Assembly (NCBI RefSeq): GCF_900142985.1
Contig: NZ_LT670849.1
Span: 6,712,501-6,776,500 of the forward strand
Length of the DNA stretch: 64,000 bases
From: Bradyrhizobium erythrophlei
GTDB lineage: Bacteria; Pseudomonadota; Alphaproteobacteria; Rhizobiales; Xanthobacteraceae
Direction of reading: 5' to 3'
The notes below the pieces were generated by a model that worked only from the letters and a program-made list of their open reading frames with translations, was not told the origin of the DNA and made no database searches. Made by a program: the position numbers and the translations under genes. This document shows, one piece after another, positions 39,484-60,444 of this stretch; the stretch's first letter is position 1, and each line of letters opens with the position of its first letter.

Positions 39484-39532
39484 GGTGGAATCACTTAGCG
39501 TTTCGCCGGGGTAGGCAAATGAGAGCACCGCG
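39484..39532 (+). promoter_or_regulatory. conserved 49-nt leader of microprotein A
   Basis: Begins GGTGGAATCACTTAGC, continues ...GGGGTAGGCAAATGAGAG, and ends at the ATG at 39533. The same sequence with scattered changes (GGTGGAATCACCTAGC ... GGGGTGGGCAATAGAGAG) precedes the homologous gene at 60349 at exactly the same 49-nt distance. Around it CCCCGG / CCGGGG can pair here. It may be a structured leader or an operator plus ribosome-binding region. Confidence 0.55.
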
Positions 39533-39628
39533 ATGGCTTCATCTGCCTTGGAAAATGCCCTTACCGCCACCTGTGTCCTAATCGCACTCGCTGTGGTCTG
39601 GTGGGGAATAAAGATCCTCGCTGCATAA
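39533..39628 (+). CDS. 31-residue membrane microprotein A
   Basis: ATG to TAA, 31 residues. N-terminal MASSALENALTATC, one hydrophobic helix (VLIALAVVWWG) and the end WGIKILAA. It is homologous to the 31-residue product at 60349 (about 17 identical positions, including SALE, TxxCV and WGxKILAA), which rules out a chance ORF. It is predicted to be a single-span membrane peptide with the N terminus outside or inside undecided. It lies between the CmcJ-like gene and tRNA-Lys, just outside the island. Confidence 0.65.
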   Translation: MASSALENALTATCVLIALAVVWWGIKILAA

Positions 39629-39864
39629 CGGAGCAAGTCGCTCCCTGGAGCGAGGAGGTCGTGAAGGGCGACGCCGGCAGAGTTCCTGACGCTCGCCGGC
39701 GTCTCCTCCACCTTCTCGCCGGTGGCGGTGCCTGCAAATGCGACTGCGATCCTCTGAAGCGCATTCCGACCGATAACGCGTCGGGTTTTGCCGGGCGATA
39801 TCAACGGCCAATCCGAGCCTGCTATTGACCCGCCCCCGGCTGCCCCCTACACAGCGCCTCGAGC

Positions 39865-39940
39865 GAGCGCGTAGCTCAGATGGTAGAGCACGTGACTTTT
39901 AATCACGGGGTCCTGGGTTCGATCCCCAGCGCGCTCACCA
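39865..39940 (+). tRNA. tRNA-Lys (anticodon UUU)
   Basis: Full cloverleaf can be read: acceptor GAGCGCG / CGCGCTC, D-arm GCTCAGATGGTAGAGC, anticodon stem-loop CGTGA CTTTTAA TCACG with anticodon TTT, T-arm CTGGG TTCGATC CCCAG, and encoded CCA. Its 3' 47 bases serve as the attachment site of the genomic island; the gene stays intact because the island restores that part. Confidence 0.97.
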
Positions 39941-39941
39941 A
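39894..39941 (+). other. attL: left 48-bp attachment repeat in tRNA-Lys
   Basis: From GACTTTTAATCACGGGG to AGCGCGCTCACCAA. It is identical over 48 bp to 55688-55735. It covers the anticodon loop, T-arm and acceptor 3' end, the classical target of tyrosine integrases. Confidence 0.93.
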
Positions 39942-39974
39942 AAACCCCTTCAAAACCAACCAGTTCCAAAATCG

Positions 39975-40026
39975 TTGTAGCCCGCAATTAGCCCAAAAAG
40001 GCCTGTGGGCTACAAGCGGGCTACAA
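39975..40026. repeat. candidate arm-type integrase sites, left end
   Basis: GGGCTACAAGCGGGCTACAA at 40007-40026 is a tandem of GGGCTACAA at 11-bp spacing. An inverted copy, TTGTAGCCCGC, is at 39975-39985. The identical 20 bp recur at 55541-55560 inside the right end. Confidence 0.7.
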
Positions 40027-40118
40027 AAGCGTTCTTGGGGCGTTTTTAGAATGTTCTTCTAGCGTGCCGAGCCCAAAGTCCCGGCCGCGCGGGACCTGCC
40101 GGTGATCTTCGCCTTCAC

Positions 40119-40382
40119 ATGGGCGTCAATCTCTGTTTCGACCCAACCGACACGGGCGTCGCCAATCTGTACCCGCTTCGGAAACCGGTTCCTCGCTTCC
40201 AGCCGGTCGATCTGTCTCCGGCCCAGCAGAACCCCGTGCTCTCTCAACTCGCCGAACATCAACAACTTCACATCAACGAATTCATTGAGGACTCAAAGGC
40301 CTCCGGCCTAATGAATCAGATCATCGAAACATTGACTATGCAAGGAGTGCGGGTCGCTCCGCCCGGAAGCTTGTCTAAGTGA
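40119..40382 (+). pseudogene. C-terminal fragment of an ABC amino-acid-type binding protein (tentative)
   Basis: The 87-codon frame ends LHINEFIEDSKASGLMNQII then ETLTMQGVRVAPPGS. This resembles the C terminus of periplasmic solute-binding proteins (pattern: LN-FVEDAKASG-V--AIE--GLRGVAVAP-GS). The N-terminal three quarters, with signal peptide, are absent. It begins about 180 bp inside attL and is probably debris left by recombination at the island end. Confidence 0.35.
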
Positions 40383-40435
40383 AGAGATGATGGGGCCCGA
40401 CTGACCGTATCGCGCCCCAAATATGTCGCCTACTG

Positions 40436-40485
40436 GGCACTTAACGGACTTGGCCGACCTCGCTGACGATGTCCGCTTCTGAGGG
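40436..40485. repeat. GCACTTAGC / ATGTCCGCT dispersed repeat, copy 2
   Basis: GGCACTTAACGGACTTGGCC then GCTGACGATGTCCGCTTCTG. Same arrangement as 5743, 49269 and 53598. It lies just upstream of the broken IS1182-like element. Confidence 0.5.
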
Positions 40486-40590
40486 TGAACCGGACCTCAT
40501 TGTCACGCGAGCCGATGTCGCCTTTTGACCCTGGCTGTGTGAAAACGCATCGCCGCTGTTATGATTCTCCAGTGATTCTTGGAGAAATCG

Positions 40591-41448
40591 ATGAGGCGCT
40601 TCGTTGAGGAGGCGGATCGTGGGCAATGGACGCTGTTGCCCGGATGCCTTGATGATTTTATTGACGAGAGCAACCCGGTTCGTGTGATCGACGTGTTTGT
40701 CGACGCGCTCGACTTGGCCGAGATGAGTTTCGAAGGGGTAGAGCCGGCAGCAACTGGTCGGCCGTCGTACCATCCCTCGGTTCTCCTGAAGCTGTACATC
40801 TACGGCTATTTGAACCGGCTGCAGTCGAGCCGGCGGCTGGAACGAGAGGCCGGCGCAATGTGGAGGTCATGTGGTTGCTGGGTCGGCTCGCGCCTGATCA
40901 CAAGACGATCGCGGACTTCCGCAAAGACAATGGTCTGGCGCTTCGCAAGGTATGTGCGCGCTTTGTCGAACTCTGCCGTGAAATGGGCCTTCTCGCGACG
41001 ACGAGCGTTGCCATTGATGGCAGCAAGTTCAAGGCCGTGAACAACCGGGACAGGAACTTCACAAAAGCGAAGGTGGAGCGGCGACGCGCTCAGCTAGAGG
41101 AGAGCGTCGCGCGCTATCTGAGCCAACTCGACACCGCCGACAGGCAGGAGCCGACTGAAGCGCTGGCCGCGAAGGTGACAAGGCTCACCGAGAAACTGAC
41201 GAAACTGAAGGAGGAAATGGGCAAGCTTGCGGTTTACGAGAAGCGGATGCTGGCTTCGCCTGACCAGCAAATCTCTCTGACCGATCCCGACAGCCGTTCG
41301 ATGGCAACGAGCGGGCGTGGGTCTGGCGTTGTCGGCTACAATGTGCAGGTCGCGGTCGATACCGATCATCACCTGATTATCGCGCACGAGGTAACGAACA
41401 CCGGCTCGGACCGGGCACAACTCGCCAACATCGCGTCTCGTGCAAAGG
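40591..41448 (+). pseudogene. IS1182-like transposase, frameshifted and 3'-truncated
   Basis: The first part (MRRFVEEADRGQWTLLPGCL ... YIYGYLNRLQSSRRLERE) is in one frame; the continuation NVEVMWLLGRLAPDHKTIAD ... VVGYNVQVAVDTDHHLIIAH is in the next. The break is near 40850, where one base is missing (GAGGCCGG where GAGTGCCGG-like is expected). The protein then stops matching at about 41448 (AQLANIASRAK), where unrelated phage-type sequence on the other strand begins. The last third is therefore missing. It cannot be active. Confidence 0.8.
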
Positions 41449-41449
41449 A

Positions 41450-41775
41450 TGGTTCAACCGTCGCCGCTGGCCTTCATCAAGACCGGCGCGCCATGTTTCG
41501 ACGGCGTCGAGGTTCTGCAAGATGAGGAAGAGCCGGTAACGCTCCTGCGCGACGATGTCGGCGAGACCGTGCTCCTGCAGCCAAGCGCCCATGGCGGCGT
41601 TGTACTTGCTGCCGACCGGCTGATTTGTTCCTGCGATCTTCAGCGCAGCGGTTCGACCCACCGGGAGCGCGCGGGCGACGGAGAGCCAGTCGTTCCAGCT
41701 TGCTCGATCATGATCTCGGAGCCGCGACCACGCTGCGACGCCGATTGCAACTGCATCGATGACCGGTTCGGTCAT
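41450..41775 (-). pseudogene. phage-type hypothetical protein, C-terminally cut
   Basis: Begins MTEPVIDAVAIGVAAWSRLR and runs to QRRRLNHP at the junction with the transposase fragment. The blocks TNQPVGSKYNAAMGAWLQEH and RYRLFLILQNLDAVETWRAG are those of a hypothetical protein that I remember from alphaproteobacterial prophages and islands. The start overlaps the stop of the upstream gene (41772) by four bases, so they were one operon. Confidence 0.55.
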
Positions 41776-42056
41776 CCGATGCCCGCCTGTAAGATCGTGG
41801 CGGTCACCTTGCCGCCCACGCTGCTCAACACGTTCATCGTCAGGCGGATCGCAGCGACCGGCGTCGAGAACGTCGCATAGGTCGCGGTCGAGGAACCGCT
41901 CATGCTGGAAAGAACTGTCGGTGCCGAAGCACCGAGCGTCGGATTCGGAGAGCTGCCGGTCGGATCATCGACGGTGTAGTCGATCTGCCATGCGCTCGTC
42001 GAATTGCCAGCGACACGACGCTGACGCCCGCGCCCTCCACCTTTTCCGCGCGCCAA
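41772..42056 (-). CDS. phage-type structural-like hypothetical protein (probably partial)
   Basis: Only a TTG start is available and the first 15 residues are basic and unlike the rest, so the N terminus is probably lost or shifted. From NSTSAWQIDYTVDDPTGSSP onwards the sequence looks like a small beta-rich protein: TFSTPVAAIRLTMNVLSSVG ... VTATILQAGIG. Such proteins occur beside phage head/tail genes. The function is unknown. Confidence 0.45.
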   Translation of the reverse strand: MARGKGGGRGRQRRVAGNSTSAWQIDYTVDDPTGSSPNPTLGASAPTVLSSMSGSSTATYATFSTPVAAIRLTMNVLSSVGGKVTATILQAGIG

Positions 42057-42311
42057 TATCGCGGTGTCAGTTACGTTGAGTTGATGTTTCCGCGCGTACG
42101 TTGCTTTTCCAAGGGGAGCCGTCCGGCCGGGTGGCTCGGCCAGCTCGGGCCGTCGTCGCGATAAATCTGATCCTAGCTCGTCTCGAACTGTCCAACTTTT
42201 TCCAATGAGGTTCCTCTTTTCCAGATGGGACCCGCAAACGGGTGGTCATTGCCCATTGGGGCGGGTACCGGCGCCGCCGTCGATGTGCTAAAAGCCTGAA
42301 CAGTTGCTGTT

Positions 42312-42575
42312 GTGCAAGGGCATCGTCCTGTGTCGCGAGTATCCGCCGACCCGGAATTGCAGCAGTTGCTTGCGCGAGCCTTTGAGCGAGCGTGGGAGCA
42401 GTATTATCTGCCTGGTCGATCCACCATCGCCCCTGACGATGCTCGACCTGCATTAGCGAAACGGCTTGTCGCACTATCGAAGGACGGGGTCCTCGATGAG
42501 GAGCGCCTTGCTGTTGGCGGCCTGATCCATCTTCGGCTGCTCGCGATCAGGGCTGAAATAGCGCGCGGCTATTGA
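42312..42575 (+). CDS. conserved hypothetical protein of rhizobia
   Basis: 87 residues from GTG 42312. Largely helical: DPELQQLLARAFERAWEQYY, then PDDARPALAKRLVALSKDGV and GGLIHLRLLAIRAEIARG. I recognise the pattern (an AWEQYY motif, then ISPDLARPALAxxLV and G(V/I)xDExRLAxxGLxHL) as a frequent short protein in Bradyrhizobium islands. No known function. Confidence 0.6.
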   Translation: MQGHRPVSRVSADPELQQLLARAFERAWEQYYLPGRSTIAPDDARPALAKRLVALSKDGVLDEERLAVGGLIHLRLLAIRAEIARGY

Positions 42576-42639
42576 CGCTGAAGGCGACAGCGTCCAACCG
42601 CCCAAGCGGAAGCATCGCCCGCGCTGCATGCAACGGGGG

Positions 42640-42735
42640 TCAAATCATTTCCGCGACGGTGGTGATGAGTTCGTAGATGATAATCGAGAGACCGCTGGTC
42701 AAAATCACGAGTTCAAATATCAATCGCGCTATCAT
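42640..42735 (-). CDS. 31-residue membrane microprotein
   Basis: ATG at 42735 with GGAGGAGAGA nine bases upstream, an excellent ribosome-binding site. The 31 residues begin MIARLIFELVILTSGLSIII and end in a hydrophobic/acidic helix (TTVAEMI). One transmembrane helix. Its sequence is not related to the pair at 39533 and 60349. The function is unknown. Confidence 0.5.
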   Translation of the reverse strand: MIARLIFELVILTSGLSIIIYELITTVAEMI

Positions 42736-43073
42736 GGCCGGTCTCTCCTCCGGTTTATGGCTCGACGGACCCCAGAAGGTTGAACCAGCTCTCAGACGCT
42801 TGTCTATGACGAAAATGCAAGTCTTATCCGCAAGCGGCGAAGGGCTAGTCCATCCGCATGCCTCTCAGGTCGCTGGCGTGGCGTGTGGTTGAGTTGCGAC
42901 GTTGTCTGCTGATCTGGACGTGGGCGAGAGTGATTGAAGGCATCATCCGGCATTTGTGGGGTTCATTAATTCAGGTTTAACAATGTCGCGTCGCGGCTGC
43001 CCGCCTACGTCCGCCCTGGGAACGAACGTGAAAAATGCCTGCTAATGCCTTCTCTAGCGAGGAGATCGAAGTG

Positions 43074-43346
43074 ATGAGGATATTCACTACGGCCGCCCTA
43101 ACGCTTGGGGCCTTGGCGCTATGTACTGCAGACCATGCCGCAAACGCTGAAGTCAGGAAAGCAACCGCTGAAGTCAGGAAAGTCTGGATCATCCGTAACC
43201 CTCGCGGATCATGCGGGCCGCCCGACTACAATATCGTTCCCCGCTATTGCTATGACCCTAGGGATGACCGGGTGGATACTAGTCCGTATGCCAAGCCGGT
43301 AGCGCCCGTACACGGACTAGAGTACGGCGGACCTAGTGGCTGGTGA
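43074..43346 (+). CDS. small secreted hypothetical protein
   Basis: 90 residues from ATG 43074 (GAGGAG upstream), with signal peptide MRIFTTAALTLGALALCTAD (cleavage after ANA). A nine-residue unit (AEVRKATAEVRKV) is duplicated just after the cleavage site. The mature part has Cys residues in GSCGPPDYNIVPRYCYDP. No known domain. Confidence 0.6.
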   Translation: MRIFTTAALTLGALALCTADHAANAEVRKATAEVRKVWIIRNPRGSCGPPDYNIVPRYCYDPRDDRVDTSPYAKPVAPVHGLEYGGPSGW

Positions 43347-43622
43347 TCACACGAGTAGAGGACATGTCCGGCCGCCCTCACGATCTTGAAAAGGGGTCCG
43401 GGGGTAAACCCCCTCGGGCCTTGGGCACGATCAACGTCCGTTTATTTTAATCCCCCTTCGTCACAACGCGCGCTGCTTTCTGGAGGGACCCACTTCTGCG
43501 CCGCTGTTCTCGTGGCTCAACTGTCCCGAGGTGACGCCGATATTTTTTCAGAAAAATTCTGGAATGCCAGTAGGCGACGATCAATCGGTTCGCGCGGGAT
43601 TGTCGCCGCTGTCGTCGAGAAC

Positions 43623-43829
43623 TTAGATGTCCCAGTTGTTCATCCACAACATCATGAATCCAGCAACAAGGCCCACAGTTAAAACAAGGGCCAAAAGGAT
43701 CAAACCGATTTTCCAGTATTTTCCGAAGGCCACAAAAAAGCAAAACAATCCAAACGGATCGCTGGCGGAAATCGCCGCCGCCATGGCGACGTCGGCCGAA
43801 GACCTTTTTCTTTTGCGAGGTTCTGTCAT
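43623..43829 (-). CDS. small membrane protein, paralogue 2
   Basis: 68 residues: MTEPRKRKRSSADVAMAAAI, then two hydrophobic helices (PFGLFCFFVAFGKYWKIG and LILLALVLTVGLVAGFMMLW). It is clearly related to the 72-residue product at 43910 (MTE start, basic stretch, DP-L-x-F / GxLxxFxKxWKxGLIxLALVL). Probably a third gene of the same operon; 80 bp separate the two. Function unknown. Confidence 0.6.
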   Translation of the reverse strand: MTEPRKRKRSSADVAMAAAISASDPFGLFCFFVAFGKYWKIGLILLALVLTVGLVAGFMMLWMNNWDI

Positions 43830-43909
43830 TTCCGCTTGCGCTTTCGCTTGCTGTCGCTGACCGGCCGACGTGTCACGCGCTCTGGCGGTCTTCGCGCGGG
43901 ATTATCGTC

Positions 43910-44128
43910 TTAGTCGTCGGGCACTTGGACGTTCCGGTTTCTTTGCCACAGCGTGGATGTCGCAAATGCCACCGCGCCCAAGACGAGGGCCAAAACGATC
44001 AGACCGCCCTTCCACGATTTTGCGAATACCGCCAAAACGCCAAACCACATGAGGGGATCAAGGGCGTATGGCGCGACCTCCTTGGCGGCGTCGGCCAAAG
44101 GCCTTTTCGTTTCGCGGCCCTCCGTCAT
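43910..44128 (-). CDS. small membrane protein, paralogue 1
   Basis: 72 residues: MTEGRETKRPLADAAKEVAP, then DPLMWFGVLAVFAKSWKGGL and IVLALVLGAVAFATSTLW. Two transmembrane helices. The start overlaps the upstream stop (44125) by four bases, a sign of translational coupling. It is a tandem relative of 43623. Confidence 0.6.
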   Translation of the reverse strand: MTEGRETKRPLADAAKEVAPYALDPLMWFGVLAVFAKSWKGGLIVLALVLGAVAFATSTLWQRNRNVQVPDD

Positions 44129-44505
44129 TTCCGCTCGCGCTTGCGGTCGTCGTGCTCTTTCTTCAGTTTCGTCATCTTCCCAAAGAACCAGTGAAGCGCG
44201 GCCTCGATGGGAATCCAGATCAACAAAGCCTCGGCGGCAAGCGAGATGTGCTGATGCATTGCGCGCAGGTCCTCCTCAATCATGAGTCGGAATGCGCTTA
44301 CGGGGGTTCGCCGGTTCAGCGCGTTTCCCACACGGGCTTGATCTGTGAATGCCATTTTGCCGGGCCAGCCGTCGCCGATGAATGCGATGGCGTCATCGGC
44401 CGGTGTCAGAGAGCCCGTCACCGCGCGATGTTCGACCAGCGCCACGATGCCGCGCCAAGCCCGGCGGAGGTGGTCTGGATTCGTTCGCCGGTCGAGCCGC
44501 TTCAA
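44125..44505 (-). CDS. hypothetical protein, first gene of a three-gene small-membrane-protein unit
   Basis: 126 residues if the TTG at 44505 is used; no ribosome-binding site is visible, and the start may have been lost toward the IS110 side. Blocks: LRRAWRGIVALVEHRAVTGS, DDAIAFIGDGWPGKMAFTDQ, and a C-terminal amphipathic/hydrophobic helix (LLIWIPIEAALHWFFGKM) followed by a very basic tail. It is translationally coupled to the next gene. Function unknown. Confidence 0.5.
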   Translation of the reverse strand: MKRLDRRTNPDHLRRAWRGIVALVEHRAVTGSLTPADDAIAFIGDGWPGKMAFTDQARVGNALNRRTPVSAFRLMIEEDLRAMHQHISLAAEALLIWIPIEAALHWFFGKMTKLKKEHDDRKRERK

Positions 44506-44584
44506 TGACCGGCCGACAGGGTCGCGCGCATGAGCAGGCTTCCTGCGGGGGTCGACTTTACAAATTTGTTATCGCAGCGTTAGC

Positions 44585-44782
44585 GCGAGAACATGTGTCT
44601 GCTGTTGGGGGGCGAAGCAGACATGACGACGCCGGGCTGTGACTTCTGGTAATGGCCCCCAAGATGGGGTTATCGGCCGGCCCAGCTTGTGGATAGCTGA
44701 AGATTTTGGGTGCTGCGCTTCAGGCTGATGGTGAAACGAGGTCCGTGGTAACGGCCTCAAGCATCAGAAGGAGAAGCGCAGC
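44585..44782 (+). ncRNA. candidate IS110 bridge RNA region (left non-coding end)
   Basis: About 200 nt of non-coding DNA directly before the IS110 transposase, the position where IS110-group elements encode their bridge RNA. Hairpins can be read: TGTCTGCT (44596-44603) with AGCAGACA (44616-44623), and GGTAATGGCCCCC with GGGGTTATC. Loops could serve for donor and target pairing. The presence of RNA is inferred from family knowledge; exact ends are not determined. Confidence 0.45.
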
Positions 44783-45814
44783 ATGGACCATTTTGCTGGA
44801 TTGGACGTATCGGTCAAGGAGACAAGTGTCTGCATTGTGGATGACACGGGCAGGATCGCGAAGGAATTAAGGGTAGCAAGCGAGCCAGACGCTCTGCTGC
44901 GGGTTCTGGGGAACCCGGCCTACCGTTTCAAGCGGATCGGATTGGAGGCTGGGCCGCTGTCGCAATGGCTTTTCGGTGCGCTTGCCGAAGCAGGCTTGCC
45001 TGTCATCTGTGTCGAGACGCGGCACATGCGGGCGGTTCTGAAGGCGCAGATCAACAAGACGGATCGCAACGATGCGCGCGGTATGGCCCAGATGATGCGG
45101 GCGGGGCTTTATCGCCCGGTGCATGTGAAGACGCTACGCAGTCAGAAACTGCGAGTGCTGCTGACCCATCGCAAACTGCTGCAGTCCAAGGCCATCGCCG
45201 TCGATAACGACCTGCGAGGGACTTTGCGCAACTTCGGCCTCAAGGTGGGCGTGGTAGGAACGGTGAAGTTCGAGGCGCGCATCAAGGAGCTTGTCGAAAG
45301 CTTCCCGGATCTTGCTGAGTTAGTCGAACCGCTGCTGATTGTCCGGCGGACGCTTCGTGAGCAGATCGGCATTCTTCATCGTCGCTTGCTGGCTATCGTT
45401 CGGAATGATGATGTGTGCCGGCGCCTGATGACCATCCCGGGTGTTGGTCCCGTTGTGGCGCTGACCTATCGCGCGACTGTCGACGTGCCCGCCCGCTTCC
45501 GAAACTCCAAGGCGGTGGGGGCGGTGTTTGGGCTCACGCCTTCCAGGTATCAATCAGGCGAGATTGACCGACCCGGCGCCATATCAAGGTGCGGCGACGA
45601 GATGATGCGGGCAATGCTCTACGAAGCGGCTCATATCATGCTGGTGCGTTTGGCGAAGTGGTCCTGGCTCAAGGCCTGGGCCATGAAGATCGCCAGGCAC
45701 CGCGGGATGAAGAAGGCGATCGTGGCGCTGGCGCGCCGGTTGGCGGTGATCATGCACCGCATCTGGGTTGACGGTACCGAGTTCCGATGGAGCCGGGAAG
45801 TTACAGCGGCGTGA
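44783..45814 (+). CDS. IS110 family transposase
   Basis: 343 residues, intact. N-terminal RuvC-like DEDD domain: FAGLDVSVKETSVCIVDDTG with the first Asp, GLEAGPLSQWLFGALAE with the Glu, and KTDRNDARGMAQMMR with the last two Asp. The C-terminal Transposase_20 domain has TIPGVGPVVALTYRA and GLTPSRYQSGEIDRPGAISR CGD-type block, which contains the catalytic Ser region. AGAAGGAGAAG precedes the ATG. A non-coding 5' end of about 200 nt is typical of the group. Confidence 0.93.
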   Translation: MDHFAGLDVSVKETSVCIVDDTGRIAKELRVASEPDALLRVLGNPAYRFKRIGLEAGPLSQWLFGALAEAGLPVICVETRHMRAVLKAQINKTDRNDARGMAQMMRAGLYRPVHVKTLRSQKLRVLLTHRKLLQSKAIAVDNDLRGTLRNFGLKVGVVGTVKFEARIKELVESFPDLAELVEPLLIVRRTLREQIGILHRRLLAIVRNDDVCRRLMTIPGVGPVVALTYRATVDVPARFRNSKAVGAVFGLTPSRYQSGEIDRPGAISRCGDEMMRAMLYEAAHIMLVRLAKWSWLKAWAMKIARHRGMKKAIVALARRLAVIMHRIWVDGTEFRWSREVTAA

Positions 45815-45926
45815 GGACTAGCAGGATTAAACGCGATAGGAGGACACTCGAGTTCCACCGAGCGGTGGAATGATGTCCCTCACGGGACGATGGATGAGGT
45901 GAGTTCGTGTGTCCGCTTGGACCGGC

Positions 45927-47146: not shown

Positions 47147-47485
47147 TCCCCCACTGTCTGTAAGACGGCAAGGCCGCCCCAAAGATTGTTCCGCCTCGTC
47201 TTCGAATCCCATACTGGAAGGGCCTTGGTGCCGATTCCGAAGAGAAGCACGAGCCCGTGGGCGACACCAACACCGCAAACATGGATAGTCTGAAAGTGCT
47301 TGACCCCTAACGGCCGATTAGAGAATTCGGACATTTGATCTCGCCCGTTCTGAGCCGTTCGCAAGCCATTTATCGACGACGCCTCGCCACAAATAGCTAT
47401 GGCTTTGCGCTTATTGGGCGCACCGTGCCCGGTGTGAGGGTCTTATGAGACGACGCACGTTCATCGCACTCATGGAGCGCCGCAA
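47147..47485. other. IS and signal-peptide debris
   Basis: No intact gene. The stretch around 47200-47300 (CTTGGTGCCGATTCCGAAG ... CGCAAACATGGATAGTC) looks to me like an end of an IS110/IS1111-type element, from memory. At 47445 an ATG opens MRRRTFIALM, the start of a Tat-type signal as in PF04392 binding proteins, but it switches to ERRKWANLF and stops after 27 codons. This seems to be a cut gene start fused to the hydrolase upstream region. Confidence 0.4.
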
Positions 47486-49261: not shown

Positions 49262-49268
49262 TGACCGC

Positions 49269-50421: not shown

Positions 50422-50442
50422 GGTCGACCACTTCCGCTGTTG

Positions 50443-52017: not shown

Positions 52018-52106
52018 ACAAAACGGACATGCAGTTGCAGTCGCCGCATGTCGCCTGTTGGGGATGAACGGACGTCGGTCAGACGTCGGCTAAGGTCCGA
52101 GTTTGA

Positions 52107-53599: not shown

Positions 53600-53645
53600 C
53601 ACTTAGCCGACACGTCCCGGGCGCGCTCGCGATTTCCGCTCCTGG
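53598..53645. repeat. GCACTTAGC / ATGTCCGCT dispersed repeat, copy 4
   Basis: GGCACTTAGCCGACACGTCC then GGGCGCGCTCGCGATTTCCG CT-type end, directly at the IS1182 copy B right end. Confidence 0.5.
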
Positions 53646-53834
53646 CGGCCTCTTTCATTCGCGGTGTACAACTAGGACAGCACCCGTGGCCTATTTCGAT
53701 CCTAACGCAGTGACCTATTTTGCCGCATTGACTCACCGTGTTGAAGGCGAGCAAAGTTGGTCATCACCGTCCTAGTCACGGCAGTTATCGGTGACAGAGA
53801 GTGTTGCGCTCCCGCCTGGTCCAGCGTGAGCATC

Positions 53835-54011
53835 ATGCCGAAAAATCCGCCACCTCCTATTTGCATGAACTGCCGCAGGCCGATGCAATTTTTGCTGCGC
53901 AAGAATATCGGCGGCCGGAAGTTTCAGTGCCCCTATTGCGAGGGTGACGACCCGCTGCGGTCGGCCGAGGTGGCAAAGCTCCTAACTGGTGAATTGCGGC
54001 CCTTGAAGTAA
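53835..54011 (+). CDS. small zinc-ribbon protein
   Basis: 58 residues from ATG 53835. Two CxxC pairs: PPPICMNCRRPMQFLLRKN and KFQCPYCEGDDPLR, spaced about 20 residues apart, then a short basic/hydrophobic tail. A longer in-frame start at 53757 exists but its residues do not look coding. Similar small zinc ribbons are common in Bradyrhizobium. The function is unknown. Confidence 0.65.
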   Translation: MPKNPPPPICMNCRRPMQFLLRKNIGGRKFQCPYCEGDDPLRSAEVAKLLTGELRPLK

Positions 54012-54094
54012 GGTCGCGTCAGCTTCAGAGTGGTCTGTTTTGCTCAGATCGGACTGAGAAAACAGGGTACTGTTCACTCCGTAAGAGAGTGTCC

Positions 54095-54199
54095 ATGACT
54101 TACACCCTCGCCATCATCTTGGCGCTCCTAGGGTTCGCCGCCAGCGCGATCACGGTCATTGCTGTGTGGGACGCGCTCCGGCGACAACGAAGAATTTAA
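54095..54199 (+). CDS. 34-residue membrane microprotein
   Basis: MTYTLAIILALLGFAASAIT then VIAVWDALRRQRRI: one hydrophobic helix and a basic cytoplasmic tail. AAGAGAG lies about ten bases upstream, and an intrinsic terminator follows directly, so this is probably a real one-gene unit. The function is unknown. Confidence 0.5.
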   Translation: MTYTLAIILALLGFAASAITVIAVWDALRRQRRI

Positions 54200-54224
54200 G
54201 GCCGCCCAATTGGCGGCCTCTTTC
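54200..54224 (+). terminator. intrinsic terminator after the 34-residue ORF
   Basis: Stem GGCCGCC / GGCGGCC with loop CAATT, followed by TCTTTC. Its position one base after the stop codon is typical of short genes. The other strand carries the 3' end of the integrase gene 42 bp on. Confidence 0.75.
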
Positions 54225-54265
54225 ATATCAAGCCAAGCGTCATTAATCTCCGCCAGCTTCCGCCA

Positions 54266-55522
54266 TCAGGCAGCAGTGCGTTCATCAAGTTGGGATTGTT
54301 GGGCGGTTACGATGCATTCGATGTAGTCGCCCCACACCTGCATCGCCGCCTGCTTCTCGTCCCAGTATTGCGCGAAGTTGTAATGCTTCCTTGAACCGGC
54401 CGTCGCCTCTCCGGCGATGTGGTTCATGCATGCATCGGTGATGTGGAGCGCGATCTTCAGCTTGTCCTGACCGACGTTCTGGAAGGTGCGGCGGAAGTCG
54501 TGCAGCCAGTAATCCCTGAAGTCGTCGCCGAGCCGCTTCTTGAAGGCGATGGCGGCGTTCGACCAGCCGGAGAAGCCGCCGTCACCGCCTTCGCCGAACA
54601 GATAACCGGTGTCGTCTTGGCGGCGATCCCAGACCTTGTTAATCAGGGCGAGCGCCTGCTGCGAAAGCGGCAGCAGGAACGTCGTGCCGTTTTTCGACCG
54701 GCCGGGTCCAGACAGTTCGATTTTCATCTCGTTGCGCTTCACCTCGCTGCGCTTGAGCTGGCCGATCTGGTTCCGGCGCGCCGCAGTAAGGGCGATCAGC
54801 TTCTGAATCACATCGTAGTCGTTGGCGTCGTCGGACGCCGCCCAGATCGTCCGCAGCTCGGCTTCGCTGTGCTGCCGGTCGCGCGTCGTCGGATTGAACT
54901 TCTCGGTGCCAGCGACCGGGTTGCCACCCTCGACGAAACCTTGGGCGATGGCCCAGTTCCAGAACTTATGAAGGTGCGCGCGGCAGCGGCTCATGGCGAT
55001 TGGGCCGTGGTCAGCCGCGATCTCGTTCAGCTCGGTCGCCACCATGCGCCGTGTCACATCATCAGGCGCGTGTTGATGCATCTCGCTGAAGTAGGCGTCC
55101 TGTTCGCCCTTTTTGTTGACACGGAACAGCGAGCGCCGGTTCTCATCGAGGTAGTTCGGGGTGCGGCCCTTGGCTTCTTGGGCCGCGAGGAAAAGCGGTG
55201 CGATCTTGCCGATGGTCTGCTTGGATGCGGCCTTGGCAGCTTCCTCGCGCTTCGCAGCGGCGGGGTTGCCGCCACGAGATATGTCCTCGAAATGTCGTTT
55301 TGCCCATGTTTGGGCCTCGACCAAATCGACCTTGGCGACCTTGTTGAAAGGGAGCCTCTCCGGCTTGTTCGTCTTCTTGCAGCGCCATTGGATGACGTAG
55401 GTGCCAGCACCACCGTCACGGAAGCGGATGCCAAAGCCGGGCATGGCATCATCGAAGATGGTGATGTCGCTCTTGCCCTCCGGCGGGCGCAGCGTTTTGA
55501 CGTTTAGTTTGGTGAACTCCAT
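54266..55522 (-). CDS. tyrosine-type site-specific integrase of the island
   Basis: 418 residues. N-terminal DUF4102-type arm-binding domain (LNVKTLRPPEGKSDITIFDD ... GFGIRFRDGGAGTYVIQW), then a core-binding SAM-like domain and the catalytic domain. Catalytic residues: Arg in LIALTAARRNQIGQLKRSEV, HxxR in WLHDFRRTFQNVG, His in MNHIAGE and the nucleophile Tyr in SRKHYNFAQYWDEK. It fits P4-like integrases that use tRNA ends. The start lies 165 bp from attR and it reads inward, so promoter and arm sites overlap. It appears intact. Confidence 0.94.
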   Translation of the reverse strand: MEFTKLNVKTLRPPEGKSDITIFDDAMPGFGIRFRDGGAGTYVIQWRCKKTNKPERLPFNKVAKVDLVEAQTWAKRHFEDISRGGNPAAAKREEAAKAASKQTIGKIAPLFLAAQEAKGRTPNYLDENRRSLFRVNKKGEQDAYFSEMHQHAPDDVTRRMVATELNEIAADHGPIAMSRCRAHLHKFWNWAIAQGFVEGGNPVAGTEKFNPTTRDRQHSEAELRTIWAASDDANDYDVIQKLIALTAARRNQIGQLKRSEVKRNEMKIELSGPGRSKNGTTFLLPLSQQALALINKVWDRRQDDTGYLFGEGGDGGFSGWSNAAIAFKKRLGDDFRDYWLHDFRRTFQNVGQDKLKIALHITDACMNHIAGEATAGSRKHYNFAQYWDEKQAAMQVWGDYIECIVTAQQSQLDERTAA

Positions 55523-55540
55523 GGGTGCCTCAAGGTTTGC

Positions 55541-55560
55541 GGGCTACAAGCGGGCTACAA
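55541..55560. repeat. candidate arm-type integrase site, right end
   Basis: GGGCTACAAGCGGGCTACAA, the exact 20 bp also found at 40007-40026. It lies between the integrase start codon and attR, so integrase bound here could also autoregulate. Confidence 0.7.
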
Positions 55561-55687
55561 AACCGCGTCTTTCGGCGGCTCACCGCGACCTGATAATCAT
55601 GAGTCAGAATGCGAAAACGCACAATGGATGAAGGGCTTAGGACTACAAAAGACAATAAAAGACTATTGGCGACTTTTCGCTAAGTAC

Positions 55688-55735
55688 GACTTTTAATCAC
55701 GGGGTCCTGGGTTCGATCCCCAGCGCGCTCACCAA
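55688..55735 (+). other. attR: right 48-bp attachment repeat
   Basis: Identical to the last 47 bases of tRNA-Lys plus one A. No 5' half of a tRNA precedes it, so this is an attachment copy and not a tRNA gene. Confidence 0.93.
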
Positions 55736-55960
55736 TAAAATCAAATACTTATACCTGAATACTAAAAACTCGGTCAGACCGCGTGTCTGCGCTGTGTCTG
55801 CAAACCGATTGCTTGCACCATGACCCTCGGAGCGACAGCGCAGCGGTGTTGCATCAAAGCATCAACCCGGATTCAAACTAAGTCTGTGGGAAACGAGTCT
55901 TTGACTGTGCAGCCGCATAGTCGTCCGCTCTGCGCAGGGGCAGGCGACAGGTGGTGTGCC

Positions 55961-56056
55961 ATGCGTGAAGAATTTGCTTCTTACAGCTTCCTCGCTCTGA
56001 CCGTTGCCGGCGTTGTCATGCTTTTCTCTGGCGTGGTCGCTTTCGCAATTGCCTAA
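55961..56056 (+). CDS. 31-residue membrane microprotein
   Basis: MREEFASYSFLALTVAGVVM followed by a hydrophobic end (FSGVVAFAIA). One predicted transmembrane helix. No strong ribosome-binding site (AGGTGGTG lies upstream). Unrelated in sequence to the pair at 39533/60349. The function is unknown. Confidence 0.45.
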   Translation: MREEFASYSFLALTVAGVVMLFSGVVAFAIA

Positions 56057-56111
56057 TCCTCGTTTTTGGACAGCAGCGATTGATTGAGCCGCTCTACCCG
56101 ATAGCCCGCCA

Positions 56112-56530
56112 TGACTTAGGAAGGCCGCTGGTGAGTCCGGATTTGCTCGCTGTCATGTGCGGGCCGATCAGCGCCAGCGCAATGCGCGCGCTCCGGATCA
56201 GCCCTACCGCCGGCGGACATCGTATCGGCACGCTCGTGGGCACGGCCGGCGCTATTAAGGGGGAGCTCGCGGCCGGCCGTGCAGGTCGCGGCATCGGCGG
56301 ACACCAGCGGCCCAAAAACCAATCGGGCTTTCGAGGCTAGGTTCCAATCCAGCCACTGGCGGGCTGCCCTAGGTGACTCTAGGAAGGCCGCTGGTGAGTG
56401 TTTGGTTTGCGGGCTGGACGTGCAGGCCGATCGGCGCCGCGGAATCACAACACCCTCGTTTGCTTCAGAGGGGCACGGCCGGCCTGGCTGGGGGAAGACT
56501 CGGCCGACCGACCGTGCAGGTCGCGACGAG
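56112..56530. repeat. imperfect tandem duplication of a non-coding module
   Basis: Copy 1 starts at 56112 (GACTTAGGAAGGCCGCTGGT GAGT...) and copy 2 at 56375 (GACTCTAGGAAGGCCGCTGG TGAGT...). Both continue with a GTGC(A/G)GGCCGATC(A/G)GCGCC block, then CAC(G/C)CTCGT ... GGGCACGGCCGGC, then GGGGGA ... CGGCCG ... CCGTGCAGGTCGCG. The shared blocks are collinear over roughly 160-180 bp. No gene is seen in either copy. Confidence 0.55.
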
Positions 56531-56571
56531 CGAACGTCAGCGACCCCGAGAACAAGCAAGAACAAGCAAGG

Positions 56572-56787
56572 TTAACAGGGCGAGTTCCCTAATTCGTCAG
56601 ACAGCACTCTCTCCGTAGCTGGACAGGCGATGAACCGATATCGAGGCACCCAAGCGGAGTTCCAATTCTCGATGGTCTTGCCGCACACCGCGCATTCAAA
56701 GCTGCTGATCTCGCGAGCCTCTGCAATGTGCTCGCTGCGGTTATAAACCGCGCCGCATCTACAGGATCGATGACCTGATTCGGACAT
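56572..56787 (-). CDS. small zinc-ribbon protein, conserved hypothetical
   Basis: 71 residues: MSESGHRSCRCGAVYNRSEH then AREISSFECAVCGKTIENWN and SAWVPRYRFIA. Cys pairs CRC and CAVC form a likely zinc ribbon. I recognise it as a frequent Bradyrhizobium small protein (MSESGHRxCRCGAVY ... ENWNSAWVP), which supports the reading although no function is known. Confidence 0.7.
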   Translation of the reverse strand: MSESGHRSCRCGAVYNRSEHIAEAREISSFECAVCGKTIENWNSAWVPRYRFIACPATERVLSDELGNSPC

Positions 56788-56940
56788 GTTCCAAAGATGC
56801 GCTTCGGCCTGTCCGCTTACCAGTGAACAATCCTGCCATAATCAACCGACCATCAAAACTTGAAGGCCGGGACCTTTAGAGGCCCGCGCGCGTTGACGCT
56901 TTAGACCGGGGGCGACCGCAAAACCCGGAGCTTTTCAGTT

Positions 56941-57129
56941 ATGAGCAATATCCCCTTGGACATCGAAAGACGGTGCGAACAGCGCTGGGCTGCCAGATTT
57001 TCGGCCGCGCGCGCACTCCGAAAGCAGCACCGCCTTGAAGGGCAGCAGCGACTCGCCACGCCCGACAACACCAAAAGAGAAACCCGCCGCGTTAAGTCGG
57101 CGGGCCTGAAGCCTGCACCGGCTGTGTGA
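56941..57129 (+). CDS. small basic conserved hypothetical protein
   Basis: 62 residues: MSNIPLDIERRCEQRWAARF then a basic low-complexity part ending RVKSAGLKPAPAV. GGAG lies about ten bases before the ATG. From memory, proteins of the form MSNIPLDLERRxEQRWAARF recur in Bradyrhizobium. Its last 38 bp overlap the antisense small gene at 57092. The function is unknown. Confidence 0.6.
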   Translation: MSNIPLDIERRCEQRWAARFSAARALRKQHRLEGQQRLATPDNTKRETRRVKSAGLKPAPAV

Positions 57130-57238
57130 GCGCGGGACCGAAGCCGTTACGGCCGGCTAGGGACACTAGGCCACGAAGCGCAATCTCATCCCGCTTGTGC
57201 CGATCGTCTTCGGCGAAATAGGCCTGCATATCTTTCAT
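57092..57238 (-). CDS. small hypothetical protein, coupled to 57235
   Basis: 48 residues from ATG 57238: MKDMQAYFAEDDRHKRDEIA then LRGLVSLAGRNGFGP. The motif MQAxFAEDDRHKxDEIAxRQL recurs in short rhizobial proteins, as far as I recall. The ATG overlaps the TGA of the upstream small gene (ATGA), a sign that both are real. Confidence 0.45.
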   Translation of the reverse strand: MKDMQAYFAEDDRHKRDEIALRGLVSLAGRNGFGPALTQPVQASGPPT

Positions 57239-57399
57239 GAAGGCACGCGCGTATAGACGAGGCAGAGAAGCCCCTGGAGGATAAGGGCGGCGAAGAAATA
57301 CTTCACGGTCTCGCCGCGCGCCTCGCGGAGTTCTCGATTGAGGTCCAGTTGCAAAGCGTTGCGAACACTTGGCGAGGCTGCCAGCCGCCGTCGGCCCAC
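57235..57399 (-). CDS. small single-span membrane protein, coupled to 57092
   Basis: 54 residues if GTG 57399 is used; TTG further in is an alternative. The sequence LDLNRELREARGETVKYFFA then ALILQGLLCLVYTRVPS has a charged N-terminal helix and one transmembrane helix at the C terminus. Its stop overlaps the next start by four bases. The function is unknown. Confidence 0.4.
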   Translation of the reverse strand: MGRRRLAASPSVRNALQLDLNRELREARGETVKYFFAALILQGLLCLVYTRVPS

Positions 57400-57494
57400 G
57401 CTCTGTGCAGGAGGTGCCTGATCTCATATTCCTTTAGAGGCCTCTTCACTTTCCCTCCGCTTTCAGCCTGAGCTCGACCATGCGGCCGATGGCC

Positions 57495-57698
57495 TCAATC
57501 ATGAACGTTGGCCGTAGACGTTGCTCGGCCCTTCTCCGTTACGTGATATTCGACGTCGCTAATGTTGGTCTTGAATGGCGTCAGCCATCCTAGGTCCACC
57601 AGCCGATCGTATCTGCTGCGATCAATATTGCCGGCGGTGTATTTTCGTCCGCCGCCAGCTGCTATCCGTCTAAGCAACTTGATGTCCTCGTCCTGCAT
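57495..57698 (-). CDS. small winged-helix-like protein
   Basis: 67 residues: DIKLLRRIAAGGGRKYTAGN then IDRSRYDRLVDLGWLTPFKT and VEYHVTEKGRA. The pattern helix / helix / LVxxGWLxPF / YxVTEKGRA resembles a winged-helix DNA-binding fold as in short phage or plasmid regulators. No ligand domain is present. Regulatory role is inference. Confidence 0.55.
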   Translation of the reverse strand: MQDEDIKLLRRIAAGGGRKYTAGNIDRSRYDRLVDLGWLTPFKTNISDVEYHVTEKGRATSTANVHD

Positions 57699-57848
57699 TA
57701 TCGTTACCGTAAAGGCTTGCTCCTAGGCGGCGGAGTATTCCGCAACCTCAGGGCCGGGAGCAACGGAAAAACGCGCCGAGGCGGCCCGAAAGGAATGGAC
57801 GGCAGGTCGACGCAGTCCTTTCCGAACGCCGGTAGTAGAGGTTGATCC

Positions 57849-58343
57849 ATGTCAGACCTTGGACAAGCTCGACGTTCCACGCTTCTCGACGCTGCCTGGC
57901 GGACGGCATACCGCGTCGGCTTCCCGCTTGCCCGCATCTGGTGGCGACTGCGGCACCAACAGCATGAGGGGGCGCTTGTGGCTGTCTACGTCGGTCAGGC
58001 GCTACTGCTGGTGCGTTCGTCGTATAGGATCGAATGGAACTTCCCTGGCGGCACTATCCGGCAGGGTGAGACGCCTGAAGAAGCGGCTCGGCGTGAGCTG
58101 GCAGAAGAGATCGGCCTCGCCGGAGCATTCCCGCTGGTCGCCGTGGGCGACGCCTGGGGCCTCTGGGACGGGCGAGGAGATAAAGTGCATTTCTTTGAAC
58201 TACGACTGGATCGGCTGCCCGAATTACAGCTCGACAACCGCGAGATCATCGGCGTACGGCTGATATCGCCGAGTGAGTTGCGCGGCATGCCGCTGACCGG
58301 GCCGGTTGCCGTCTATCTCGGCAGGACGATTCCGCCGGGCTAA
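57849..58343 (+). CDS. NUDIX hydrolase
   Basis: 164 residues. The Nudix box is complete: GGTIRQGETPEEAARRELAE EIGL (GX5EX7REUXEEXGU), giving Mg2+-dependent pyrophosphohydrolase chemistry. The N-terminal part (LARIWWRLRHQQHEGALVAV) has a hydrophobic/basic segment that may associate with membrane. The substrate (nucleotide-type diphosphate) is unknown. It stands alone among small genes in the accessory right flank. Confidence 0.85.
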   Translation: MSDLGQARRSTLLDAAWRTAYRVGFPLARIWWRLRHQQHEGALVAVYVGQALLLVRSSYRIEWNFPGGTIRQGETPEEAARRELAEEIGLAGAFPLVAVGDAWGLWDGRGDKVHFFELRLDRLPELQLDNREIIGVRLISPSELRGMPLTGPVAVYLGRTIPPG

Positions 58344-58782
58344 TCTTAGAGTGACCGCGCAACGCTCGCTGTATTGATTGGCGTTGTCAGTGCCAGCCTG
58401 CTCAAGGATGGTGTGCTGACTTGGACGGCAAACGCTCCGCACATTCGCATCGGGGTTCATGCAGCCGGATCACTCGTGCTGTCACTCGCCCTGTTGTTCT
58501 TGCGGTGACGGTGTTGTGGTCGCTCTATTTTCTGGCAGACGTCGCGAAGCGTAAGGCGGGTTACCACTGCCCCTTTGAGTCACTGACGCGCTGACGTTGA
58601 TTCCGGCAATACTGCACGCTCGAAAAGCAGCAAGATTTGCCGAAACGAGTCGGCACAAGCAGCACCACTGACCTAACCCAATCGTTGTCTTTTTCAGTTG
58701 ATCGCGCGCGGGAGGAAGCCGCTAGGGATTTCGCTAGATCAGTTCGTGAGCACCACCGATCGCCACGGGGCGATATCGACGA
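58344..58782. other. stretch with possible gene remnants
   Basis: A frame from TTG 58374 to the TGA near 58508 reads LIGVVSASLLKDGVLTWTAN then RIGVHAAGSLVLSLALLFLR, which looks like a small two-helix membrane protein with a lost or non-standard start. A second 27-codon frame follows (VLWSLYFLADVAKRKAGYHC). Neither has a good start. The repeat GGCAATACTGCACGC is at 58605. Confidence 0.35.
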
Positions 58783-59319
58783 TCAAGAAAGCTCTACTAT
58801 AGGTGTTTTGCCGCTGAGTTTAGCCAGCTGCCACCCTTTCCGGAACTGGCTCCTCGTAAGTTGCCTGATGCTTGCGAGATTGGCGGCTGGAATCCGTTCG
58901 GCAACAAACGTCCTACCGGCGTCGGTCAGAAAGTCGGGTCTATTGATTTGGAACCACCATAGGAAAAGAGATTCTTCGCTTATCTGTTCCATTCCGCAAA
59001 GCTGACGGGCGACGCTCGCATACAGGATAAACCATTCGGAAAACTCAGGATCGAAATTCAGCGTTGCTTCCGGATCGCGGTCCCCGTGCTTAAAAAAATT
59101 GGCATCGCGCCTCACGAGCTTGTTCCAGTCGCTACGAAATTCATCCTTGATCAGAAACGTGTCAAAGATCAGATCGCGCCTGTAAGGGTTGCGGTGCTCG
59201 CTAATGGCATGGAAAATTTCATAAGCGGCGAAAGCAAGCGTGTGTATCGAGACGACGTCACCATCATCGTCAAACCACAAATTGATCGACGTTCGAAGCT
59301 GCCGCTGTGCAGCCACCAT
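58783..59319 (-). CDS. hypothetical protein of unknown function
   Basis: 178 residues, no signal peptide or membrane helix. Blocks: LRTSINLWFDDDGDVVSIHT, LAFAAYEIFHAISEHRNPYR, VRRDANFFKHGDRDPEATLN and FSEWFILYASVARQLCGMEQ. The pattern (HTLAxAAYEI and RxANFFKHGDRDP) recalls a helical protein family seen scattered in alphaproteobacteria, with no function I can name. It is flanked on both sides by the 15-bp repeat GGCAATACTGCACGC (58605, 59429), so it may have moved as a unit. Confidence 0.7.
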   Translation of the reverse strand: MVAAQRQLRTSINLWFDDDGDVVSIHTLAFAAYEIFHAISEHRNPYRRDLIFDTFLIKDEFRSDWNKLVRRDANFFKHGDRDPEATLNFDPEFSEWFILYASVARQLCGMEQISEESLFLWWFQINRPDFLTDAGRTFVAERIPAANLASIRQLTRSQFRKGWQLAKLSGKTPIVELS

Positions 59320-59583
59320 TTTACTTATTGTGATTGCAGTCAGATGAAAACTCTCCCATGATTCCCGGCATCAGGTAGCAATCTCACAACCTTCTATGCA
59401 GCATAACCAAGCGTAACCTCAGGTCGAAGGCAATACTGCACGCGCGAAGGCCGCCCAAGGGGCTTCGAAAAGAGCCCGCCATTCGCGACGGGTGCCAAGT
59501 TTAGGGAGAGGCCGCCAAGAGGCGGCATCACGAAGCTAGGCCGATTCGCTCGCTGGAGATGTGCCCTGCGGCCAAAATGTTGG

Positions 59584-59742
59584 CTAAGTCTTGGCTCTTC
59601 TATCCTTGGCTGATCGCCTATCAACTCCGGATCGGCGTTCACCTATTACTCGCTTTTCTTCTTCAGAGCGCGTGTCTATTCCAGACCGTCGTTCCTTTGT
59701 GGTTCGCCTATCTGCACCCGACCGCCTCTTAATATCGCCCAT
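59584..59742 (-). CDS. 52-residue Arg-rich repeat protein
   Basis: ATG 59742 with GGAG eight bases upstream. The protein is built from the repeated unit RRSG(A/I/V)D(R/T)R: MGDIKRRSGADRRTTKERRS, then GIDTRSEEEKRVIGERRSGV and DRRSAKDRRAKT. The repeats and the ribosome-binding site argue for a real gene. I recall related short proteins in Bradyrhizobium. The role is unknown; nucleic-acid binding would suit the composition. Confidence 0.6.
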   Translation of the reverse strand: MGDIKRRSGADRRTTKERRSGIDTRSEEEKRVIGERRSGVDRRSAKDRRAKT

Positions 59743-60064
59743 CGTGTGTCTCCGCTGGTTGCCGAGAATCGCGGCGCCTACACGCTATCTCGGGTTGCGC
59801 GCCCGCGACAAGCTTCCCCGGGGAAGGGGATAGATTTTTAAGCAAATCAGGCAGTCGGGGAGCCCGTGGTGCAGTCTGGCTTGCGAACGCTTCAGATCCT
59901 TGCCGCGTTACCAGCTATCCAGGATTCCGACCGCCGCGAAAAACACCACCGCCATCCAAGCCTGCGGGTCCGTCAGCTTGTTTGTAGCAATTGCCAGCAC
60001 AGTGCGGGGAAAAACTCGCTAGTCCGGAGAAGTTGCCGAAAGGCAAGTTTCGCTAGTCGAATTG
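59743..60064. other. non-coding stretch before the cspA remnant
   Basis: About 320 bp with no frame that looks coding on either strand. The right part (from about 60020) is where the missing N-terminal half of the cold-shock gene would be expected, but the sequence no longer matches it. Confidence 0.4.
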
Positions 60065-60202
60065 GGCGGCAAAGATGTATTCGTGCACATCTCCGCTGTC
60101 GAAAAGGCCGGTCTGACCAGCCTCAATGAGGGTGCCAAGGTGAGTTACGAAGAGACGGAGAACCGTGGAAAAACATCCGCGGAAAATCTCAGGGTTGGTT
60201 AG
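60065..60202 (+). pseudogene. cold-shock protein (CspA family), 3' remnant
   Basis: The frame reads GGKDVFVHISAVEKAGLTSL then NEGAKVSYEETENRGKTSAE NLRVG and stops. This is the second half of a CspA protein, with RNP2 (VFVHI). The first half, with the start and RNP1 (KGFGFI), is missing: upstream the same frame reads unrelated residues to a TAG at 60020. An intrinsic terminator follows at the normal distance. So the gene has lost its 5' end. Confidence 0.75.
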
Positions 60203-60216
60203 GAAACTGTCTTAGA

Positions 60217-60246
60217 GCCGGCAGGGTTACTGCCGGCGGGTCTTTG
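60217..60246 (+). terminator. intrinsic terminator of the cspA remnant
   Basis: Stem GCCGGCAG / CTGCCGGC with loop GGTTA, then GGGTCTTTGGGG. It lies 14 bp after the stop codon. Confidence 0.7.
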
Positions 60247-60299
60247 GGGAGAACGTGTGACTCGCGACCTTCCTAAAGTCAGACGAGTAGACGCATCGA

Positions 60300-60348
60300 G
60301 GTGGAATCACCTAGCTTCCTAGCGGGGTGGGCAATAGAGAGAAGTCCA
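60300..60348 (+). promoter_or_regulatory. conserved 49-nt leader of microprotein B
   Basis: GGTGGAATCACCTAGC ... GGGGTGGGCAATAGAGAG, ending at the ATG at 60349. It matches the leader at 39484 in sequence and in exact distance to the start codon. Confidence 0.55.
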
Positions 60349-60444
60349 ATGAGACTCTCGGCCCTCGAGACTGTCTTGCTAACAGCCTGTGTCGTCCTTG
60401 CCGTGGTCGTCGCATACTGGGGATTGAAGATCCTTGCGGCATGA
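60349..60444 (+). CDS. 31-residue membrane microprotein B
   Basis: Same length as microprotein A (39533): N-terminal MRLSALETVLLTAC, hydrophobic helix VVLAVVVAYWG, end WGLKILAA. About 17 of 31 positions are identical between the two, and codon differences are mostly silent or conservative, as expected for a protein under selection. Predicted single-span membrane peptide. The function is unknown. Confidence 0.65.
   Translation: MRLSALETVLLTACVVLAVVVAYWGLKILAA

Follow-up and report, generated by a model that had tools for sequence, protein, structure and literature searches.

Two related 31-residue peptides are encoded in a 64,000-nt stretch of Bradyrhizobium erythrophlei (contig NZ_LT670849.1, positions 6,712,501 to 6,776,500; hereafter the window). 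They are paralogues within a genus-wide family of microproteins that are probably membrane-embedded, and they are probably transcribed from a sigma70-type promoter that contains a CcrM methylation site (GANTC) and would be timed by GcrA and CcrM. The reading is built on selection acting on the open reading frames (ORFs) and on a GAATC site that is present upstream of every distinct family member compared.

Two peptides and their relatives in Bradyrhizobium

The two ORFs lie on the plus strand at 39533..39628 (copy 1, MASSALENALTATCVLIALAVVWWGIKILAA) and 60349..60444 (copy 2, MRLSALETVLLTACVVLAVVVAYWGLKILAA). Both translate to 31 residues, as an earlier note made from the letters of the window had proposed, and their peptides are 55% identical. 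Among the motifs that the note listed as common, SALE and WGxKILAA are borne out, whereas the TxxCV pattern does not line up across the two peptides, even though C14 and V15 do align. A search of peptide 2 against its own chromosome gave exactly three places at E ≤ 10 (2.4e-13, 8.9e-13, and 7.1e-5), so the copies are more than a chance resemblance. The third copy (G000:C1:5270308-5270400, G000 being the genome that contains the window) is a single residue away from copy 2 and is likewise preceded by this leader, which is described below.

Two enriched profiles, which gave the same count at either threshold (E ≤ 0.01 or E ≤ 0.05), matched 172 of the 265 genus genomes, in line with the homologues that the note had asked for; in two of the 172 (G020 and G249) the match is weak, with E from 6e-4 to 0.01, and an earlier three-member profile had matched 71 of 146 genus genomes at E ≤ 0.1. 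One match per genome is the rule (161/172), and 11 genomes have two or three. In the samples of the taxonomic family (198 genomes) and order (397 genomes), 11 and 13 genomes matched, respectively, all in the same genus except one weak partial hit (G288), and among the sampled genomes the microproteins are essentially genus-restricted; since a helix of 31 residues makes a weak profile, remote homologues may be missed. The G288 match (locus L085) was weak, covered the profile in part, and by eye had no leader, and it was dropped before the counts given below. These start from 143 loci in part of the 172 matching genomes, which yielded 133 matches and 95 distinct combinations of upstream region and protein, 94 after that removal.

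A search with one 32-residue member found no match among 72,556 plasmid records, and no family member was confirmed in viral contigs. Protein databases hold 41 relatives at E ≤ 0.001, from organisms that include Bradyrhizobium and Afipia, and all the named ones are called "hypothetical protein"; another protein search returned seven matches, including the window's own peptide and a 67-residue entry named as a type VI secretion component. Relatives are therefore already known to databases, but as hypothetical proteins, and the suggestion that such genes are too short for standard annotation was partly right: 32-residue relatives have been annotated, several of them under that label. Neither Pfam nor NCBIfam holds a family that the peptide matches at cut-off, the sole Pfam hit below cut-off being DUF7533 (16.1 vs 27 bits), and no publication on the microprotein family was recognised in our literature searches.

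The commonest form among the fetched members has 32 residues (MRVASLES...); the window copies are 31-residue forms starting with MASS and MRLS, and other 31-residue forms start with MK. M1, E7, and W24 never vary among 68 distinct proteins, and L6, A18, V21, K27, and I28 hardly do. Purifying selection acts on the ORFs. Divergence at codon positions 1, 2, and 3 is 0.22, 0.10, and 0.25 in the 32-residue form (72 distinct coding sequences) and 0.35, 0.24, and 0.51 in the 31-residue form (14 coding sequences, one a shortened MRV form). The ratio of nonsynonymous to synonymous substitution rates (dN/dS, NG86) has a median of 0.29 and 0.30, respectively, and is below 1, which the note had named as support for a gene family, in 99.8% of 544 usable pairs (600 sampled) and 91% of 76 usable pairs (of 91). 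Copies 2 and 3 differ at 0, 1, and 10 first, second, and third codon positions.

AlphaFold2 models copy 1 as a single helix of residues 2-30 (predicted local distance difference test score 91, predicted template-modelling score 0.48), and the Kyte-Doolittle maxima over 19 residues are 2.13 and 2.44 for the window peptides, which are probably single-helix microproteins of the inner membrane. No conserved operon partner was recognised at the 94 loci, for which flanks of 1.5-2.5 kb were compared as a rule: the commonest neighbourhood clusters occur at ≤ 30 loci, and one 81-locus cluster was set aside as a presumed artefact of merged reading frames. Each copy appears to be a stand-alone transcription unit. 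An acyl-CoA-ligase-like neighbour was read from the sequence by eye among the family loci. Known single-pass membrane microproteins of bacteria, such as CydX, KdpF, and AcrZ, likewise have about 30 residues, one hydrophobic helix, and a tiny gene of their own; unlike them, the Bradyrhizobium peptides fall in no such Pfam or NCBIfam family, show no recognised conserved neighbour that would suggest a partner, and are essentially confined to one genus among the genomes sampled.

The leader as a candidate CcrM-site promoter

In both window copies the common leader (GGTGGAATCAC) begins exactly 49 nt 5' of the ATG, at 39484 and 60300, as the earlier note had described. The covariation expected of it was not found: RNAalifold predicts 0 base pairs in the leader itself, and Rfam at gathering thresholds, which detects two cobalamin riboswitches and one tRNA in the whole window, has no match there, which favours a promoter over a leader RNA. 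The idea of a microprotein family with its own control element is supported in that homologues are many, dN/dS is below 1 in nearly all pairs tested, and the leader is conserved alongside the ORF, with the control element best recast as a promoter.

The leader is best read as a sigma70-type promoter with a GANTC site between its -35 and -10 elements. Numbering positions from the G of GAATC, GAATC-N3-TA is found in all 94 distinct upstream regions, the N of GANTC being A without exception; TTG stands exactly 16 nt 5' of GAATC in 91 of them, copy 2 being among the three without it, and GGG lies 20 or 21 nt 3' of the G in 92. These letters correspond to a -35 hexamer TTGCNG and a TA at 18-bp spacing, and from the placement of the two elements the GGGG falls at the expected transcription start. 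Of the 13 members with a start other than MRVA or MKVA, 12 show the pattern TANNNT; the remaining 81 members read TANNNC or TANNNG, the -10 of the 32-residue form being TAGACC-like. Spacer conservation is 43-60% at -12, -10, -9, and -3 to -1, 82% at -11, and 80-87% at the second-site letters (-8 to -4). In copy 1 (plus strand), the predicted elements are TTGCGG (-35, 39472..39477), GAATC (39488..39492), TAGCGT (-10 of the TANNNT pattern with an 18-bp spacer, 39496..39501), and GGGG in the putative start region (39508..39511). Their counterparts in copy 2 (plus strand) are TAGACG (60288..60293), the -35 that copy 3 also has, GAATC (60304..60308), TAGCTT (again TANNNT, 60312..60317), and GGGG (60324..60327). 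Sigma54 and extracytoplasmic function promoters were compared by eye with their consensuses and dropped, TTG-N18-TANNNT being the better fit.

From -600 to +600, GANTC averages 0.36% per position outside the conserved sites and peaks at -8 (69%), at +47 to +49 (codons 2-3; 41, 31, and 10%), and to a lesser extent at +116/+117 (11 and 18%). A second GANTC 8 bp upstream of GAATC is present in 65 of the 94 regions, all belonging to 32-residue forms, and reads GATTC in two. Downstream, codons 2-3 are AGA-GTC in 77 of 80 MRV forms, giving an extra GANTC (GAGTC) just 3' of the ATG (e.g. L015, minus strand); codon preference near the start, and not methylation, may explain why AGA-GTC is conserved. 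The base 3' of GAATC is A or G in all 94 regions, giving YGATTC on the opposite strand. A sequence-only model (R1), run over 119 family genomes under filters that miss weak matches, recovered the three G000 copies and single sites in four genomes of the genus. Two other genera gave three weak partial matches between them (E 0.015-0.08).

Homologues of both candidate regulators are encoded in the window's genome. CcrM matches CcrMI 6pbd at 2.1e-153 (phmmer) and has a RAMA domain. Three proteins exceed the Pfam GcrA cut-off (G000:C1:2302186, 3254912, and 4927058) with a model that also gives matches in a Sulfolobus control, and one GcrA-domain protein matches the solved GcrA 7ye1 at 1.2e-37. GANTC is the CcrM site, and in B. 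diazoefficiens 99.77% of these motifs are reported to carry methylation in culture, against 97.46% in symbiosis (PMC4840208). For Caulobacter, the cell-cycle start sites that have a GANTC between -35 and -10 are described as a class of their own, activated at 40-60 min (PMC4287350); methylation stimulates GcrA binding, also with the S. meliloti and B. abortus proteins (PMC3667746), and the GcrA-associated consensus is given as YGAKTCK (PMC7987155). The Bradyrhizobium leader shares with the GcrA/CcrM sigma70 promoters ctrA P1 and podJ P2 of Caulobacter the combination of -35 and -10 boxes with a promoter GANTC (PMC3667746, PMC4287350), and both regulators are encoded in the window's genome. Unlike the Caulobacter promoters, it would drive a microprotein, its GcrA dependence is putative, and its GAATC is fixed letter for letter at one distance across the genus. 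We infer, on what we consider well-placed grounds, that the microprotein genes may be under cell-cycle control.

Several observations weigh against this assignment. The 93 genus genomes (of 265) that gave no match indicate that the gene is dispensable within the genus, and the pattern TTG-N13-GANTC-N3-TAG is not enriched genome-wide (three matches vs seven for a reversed control), so there is no mark of a large regulon. CcrM and GcrA both score below the NCBIfam equivalog cut-offs, and GANTC is reported within 50 bp of merely 31% of GcrA-enriched cell-cycle start sites (PMC4287350). YGAKTCK is matched in part: the reverse strand reads YGATTC in all regions (94/94), but the final K is found in 53 of 94 and fails in both window copies. 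Finally, the invariant A as the N of GANTC is tighter than CcrM requires, leaving room for another factor.

Start-region structure and rival explanations

The evidence for a hairpin that presents the start codon in its loop is suggestive. In copy 1 it would span 39513..39548 (AGGCA-AUGA-AGC / GCU-UCAU-UGCCU; -11.8 kcal/mol in constrained folding, with 7.5% of 200 synonymous randoms as stable), and in copy 2 60329..60364 (GGGC-GAGA-GUC / GAC-UCUC-GCCC; -11.5 kcal/mol, 5.5% of 200), both on the plus strand. An AUG-enclosing stem can be drawn in 54 of 55 distinct start regions (41/41 for 32-residue, 12/13 for 31-residue, and 1/1 for 33-residue forms), with median fractions of synonymous randoms at least as stable of 0.06, 0.15, and 0.20, respectively. 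Codons 3-5 of the 32-residue form are able to pair with GGGAAGCGG of the 5' untranslated region (5'UTR), and the MASS, MRLS, and MK forms have different stems of the same geometry; L034 has no stem and L043 a weak one. Across 71 distinct 32-residue coding sequences, codons 2, 4, 5, and 8 (AGA, GCT, TCC, and AGT) show no synonymous change, while those of L6, E7, L10, A11, and A13 do vary; in the long ORFs of the window, AGA, GCT, and AGT make up 2, 8, and 5% of the codons for their amino acids. Taken as a whole, the 5'UTR with the first eight codons is not unusually stable (synonymous randoms equal it in a median fraction of 0.54 for 32-residue and 0.25 for 31-residue forms), and covariation is thin, RNAalifold with the ORF start included predicting five outer pairs, two with changes on both sides.

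Downstream of the ORF, a hairpin CTTCCGC...GCGGAAG stands about 57 nt after the stop at 53 of 81 MRVA/MKVA loci (e.g. L101 and L092), and a perfect stem of at least 7 bp occurs at 58 of 94 loci vs 10 of 94 shuffled ones. A terminator is not apparent in these flanks: the commonest ones, as printed, have no U-run, and the downstream regions fold weakly on the whole (mean z -0.9; 24% below -2).

That the leader is chiefly an RNA regulator, its hairpin controlling translation as a thermometer or small-RNA target, strikes us as doubtful, though it is a possibility to be taken seriously. The near-universal AUG-enclosing stem is formed by at least three unrelated sequences, in 20 of 41 distinct 32-residue start regions ≤ 5% of synonymous randoms are as stable, and codons 2, 4, 5, and 8 are fixed despite the rarity of AGA, GCT, and AGT, with codons 3-5 making up the 3' arm. 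However, codons 2 and 8 fall outside the stem, total stability is not unusual, and the 0.05 level is reached by 1 of 13 31-residue start regions, with L034 and L043 at 0.79; RNAalifold finds just the five outer pairs and none in the leader alone, Rfam is silent, and the invariant GAATC/TA block lies 5' of the predicted RNA. ROSE-type RNA thermometers, which occur in Bradyrhizobium, also place a 5' structure near the ribosome site, but here Rfam gives no hit and it is codons 2-6 with which the 5'UTR would pair in the putative stem.

The family might instead be real while GAATC serves as the centre of an operator for a different regulator, or as a sigma element of an unusual kind, with CcrM methylation incidental. 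We judge this unlikely, even though the N of GANTC is A in all 94 regions and conservation extends beyond GANTC to the R after GAATC, the CTAG-like -10, the GGGG, and, in the 32-residue form, GGGAAGCGGAG. The site is exactly GANTC and sits in the spacer, 65 of 94 regions carry the second GANTC 8 bp upstream, and the different promoter of a neighbouring microprotein gene, B (see below), has GACTC and GAGTC/GACTC, that is, other N letters, which favours methylation. Less probable again is a hydrophobic peptide of the type I toxin kind, restrained by start-site structure and antisense RNA. Such toxins (e.g. TisB, Ldr, and Ibs) are likewise short, hydrophobic, sometimes multicopy, and possibly occluded at the start site, and the narrow taxonomic range would also suit them; yet the Bradyrhizobium genes have a predicted methylation-site promoter, mostly a single match per genome (161/172), and no presence in plasmid records or confirmed viral contigs by the searches above, and no antisense gene is known here, no systematic search for antisense having been made. 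A chance or non-coding duplication, for which the very short ORFs might speak, we consider negligible given median dN/dS values of about 0.3, almost always below 1, and homologues in 172 genomes. We retain the sigma70-type promoter with a CcrM site as the preferred and, in our view, probable reading.

A duplicated block and the proposed mechanism

Copies 2 and 3 lie within a duplicated block of about 950 nt (60286-61183 and G000:C1:5270245-5271185; 80% identity, 758 of 948 alignment columns), which contains the microprotein discussed so far (A), microprotein B, and a GapR-like protein. B (60663..60761, plus strand; MHFVTYSIVVTAMVVVLVECGYALYYLFLLVL) is hydrophobic, 32 residues long, and 84% identical to its version in the copy-3 block. 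It is present in 2 of 265 genus genomes, its own and G082 (E 1.8e-6), where its start lies 608 nt beyond that of an A-family gene and where no GapR gene was detected in the 8-kb locus. Its putative promoter (60535..60563, plus strand) reads GAGTC-TTGACG-N13-GACTC, with two GANTC sites, and the arrangement GANTC-TTGACG-N13-GACTC is found at all three B places. The GapR-like DNA-binding protein (89 residues, 60877..61146, plus strand) matches PF10073 above cut-off (1.6e-27) and scores 83.8 bits with the NCBIfam GapR model, under its cut-off of 140. Upstream of copy 2, positions 60000-60190 resemble a partial cold-shock domain by eye, and Pfam finds nothing in ORF 59866-60126. Elsewhere in the window, the two cobalamin riboswitches are divergent and about 120 nt apart (28540-28760, minus strand; 28883-29084, plus strand).

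With the CcrM-site promoter as the preferred reading, GAATC at about -20 to -16 in the promoter spacer would be methylated by CcrM, and GcrA bound to RNA polymerase would recognise the methylation site and stimulate initiation, so that expression would be timed by the replication fork as it passes. Transcription would begin near the GGGG and yield a short mRNA, whose translation may be lowered by the hairpin around the AUG. The peptide would insert in the membrane, where its conserved E7, W24, and K/R27 probably serve to modulate a larger protein of the envelope or of cell division. A fuller scenario, which we put forward as speculation and think rather unlikely to hold in all its parts, is that of a replication-gated microprotein: fork passage would alter GAATC methylation, GcrA would fire one pulse of mRNA, the hairpin would damp the start codon, and the peptide would set a cell-cycle or bacteroid step, the copy 2/3 block being a duplicated, epigenetically timed cassette with B and the GapR-like protein.

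For most membrane microproteins there is little to indicate what they do, and their regulation offers one of the few handles on them. A promoter methylation site that is invariant across the genus would predict the timing of peptide synthesis and names the regulators to test. Because B. diazoefficiens reportedly shows less ccrM expression and less GANTC methylation in nodules than in culture (PMC4840208), the family may also offer a readout of epigenetic control in symbiosis.

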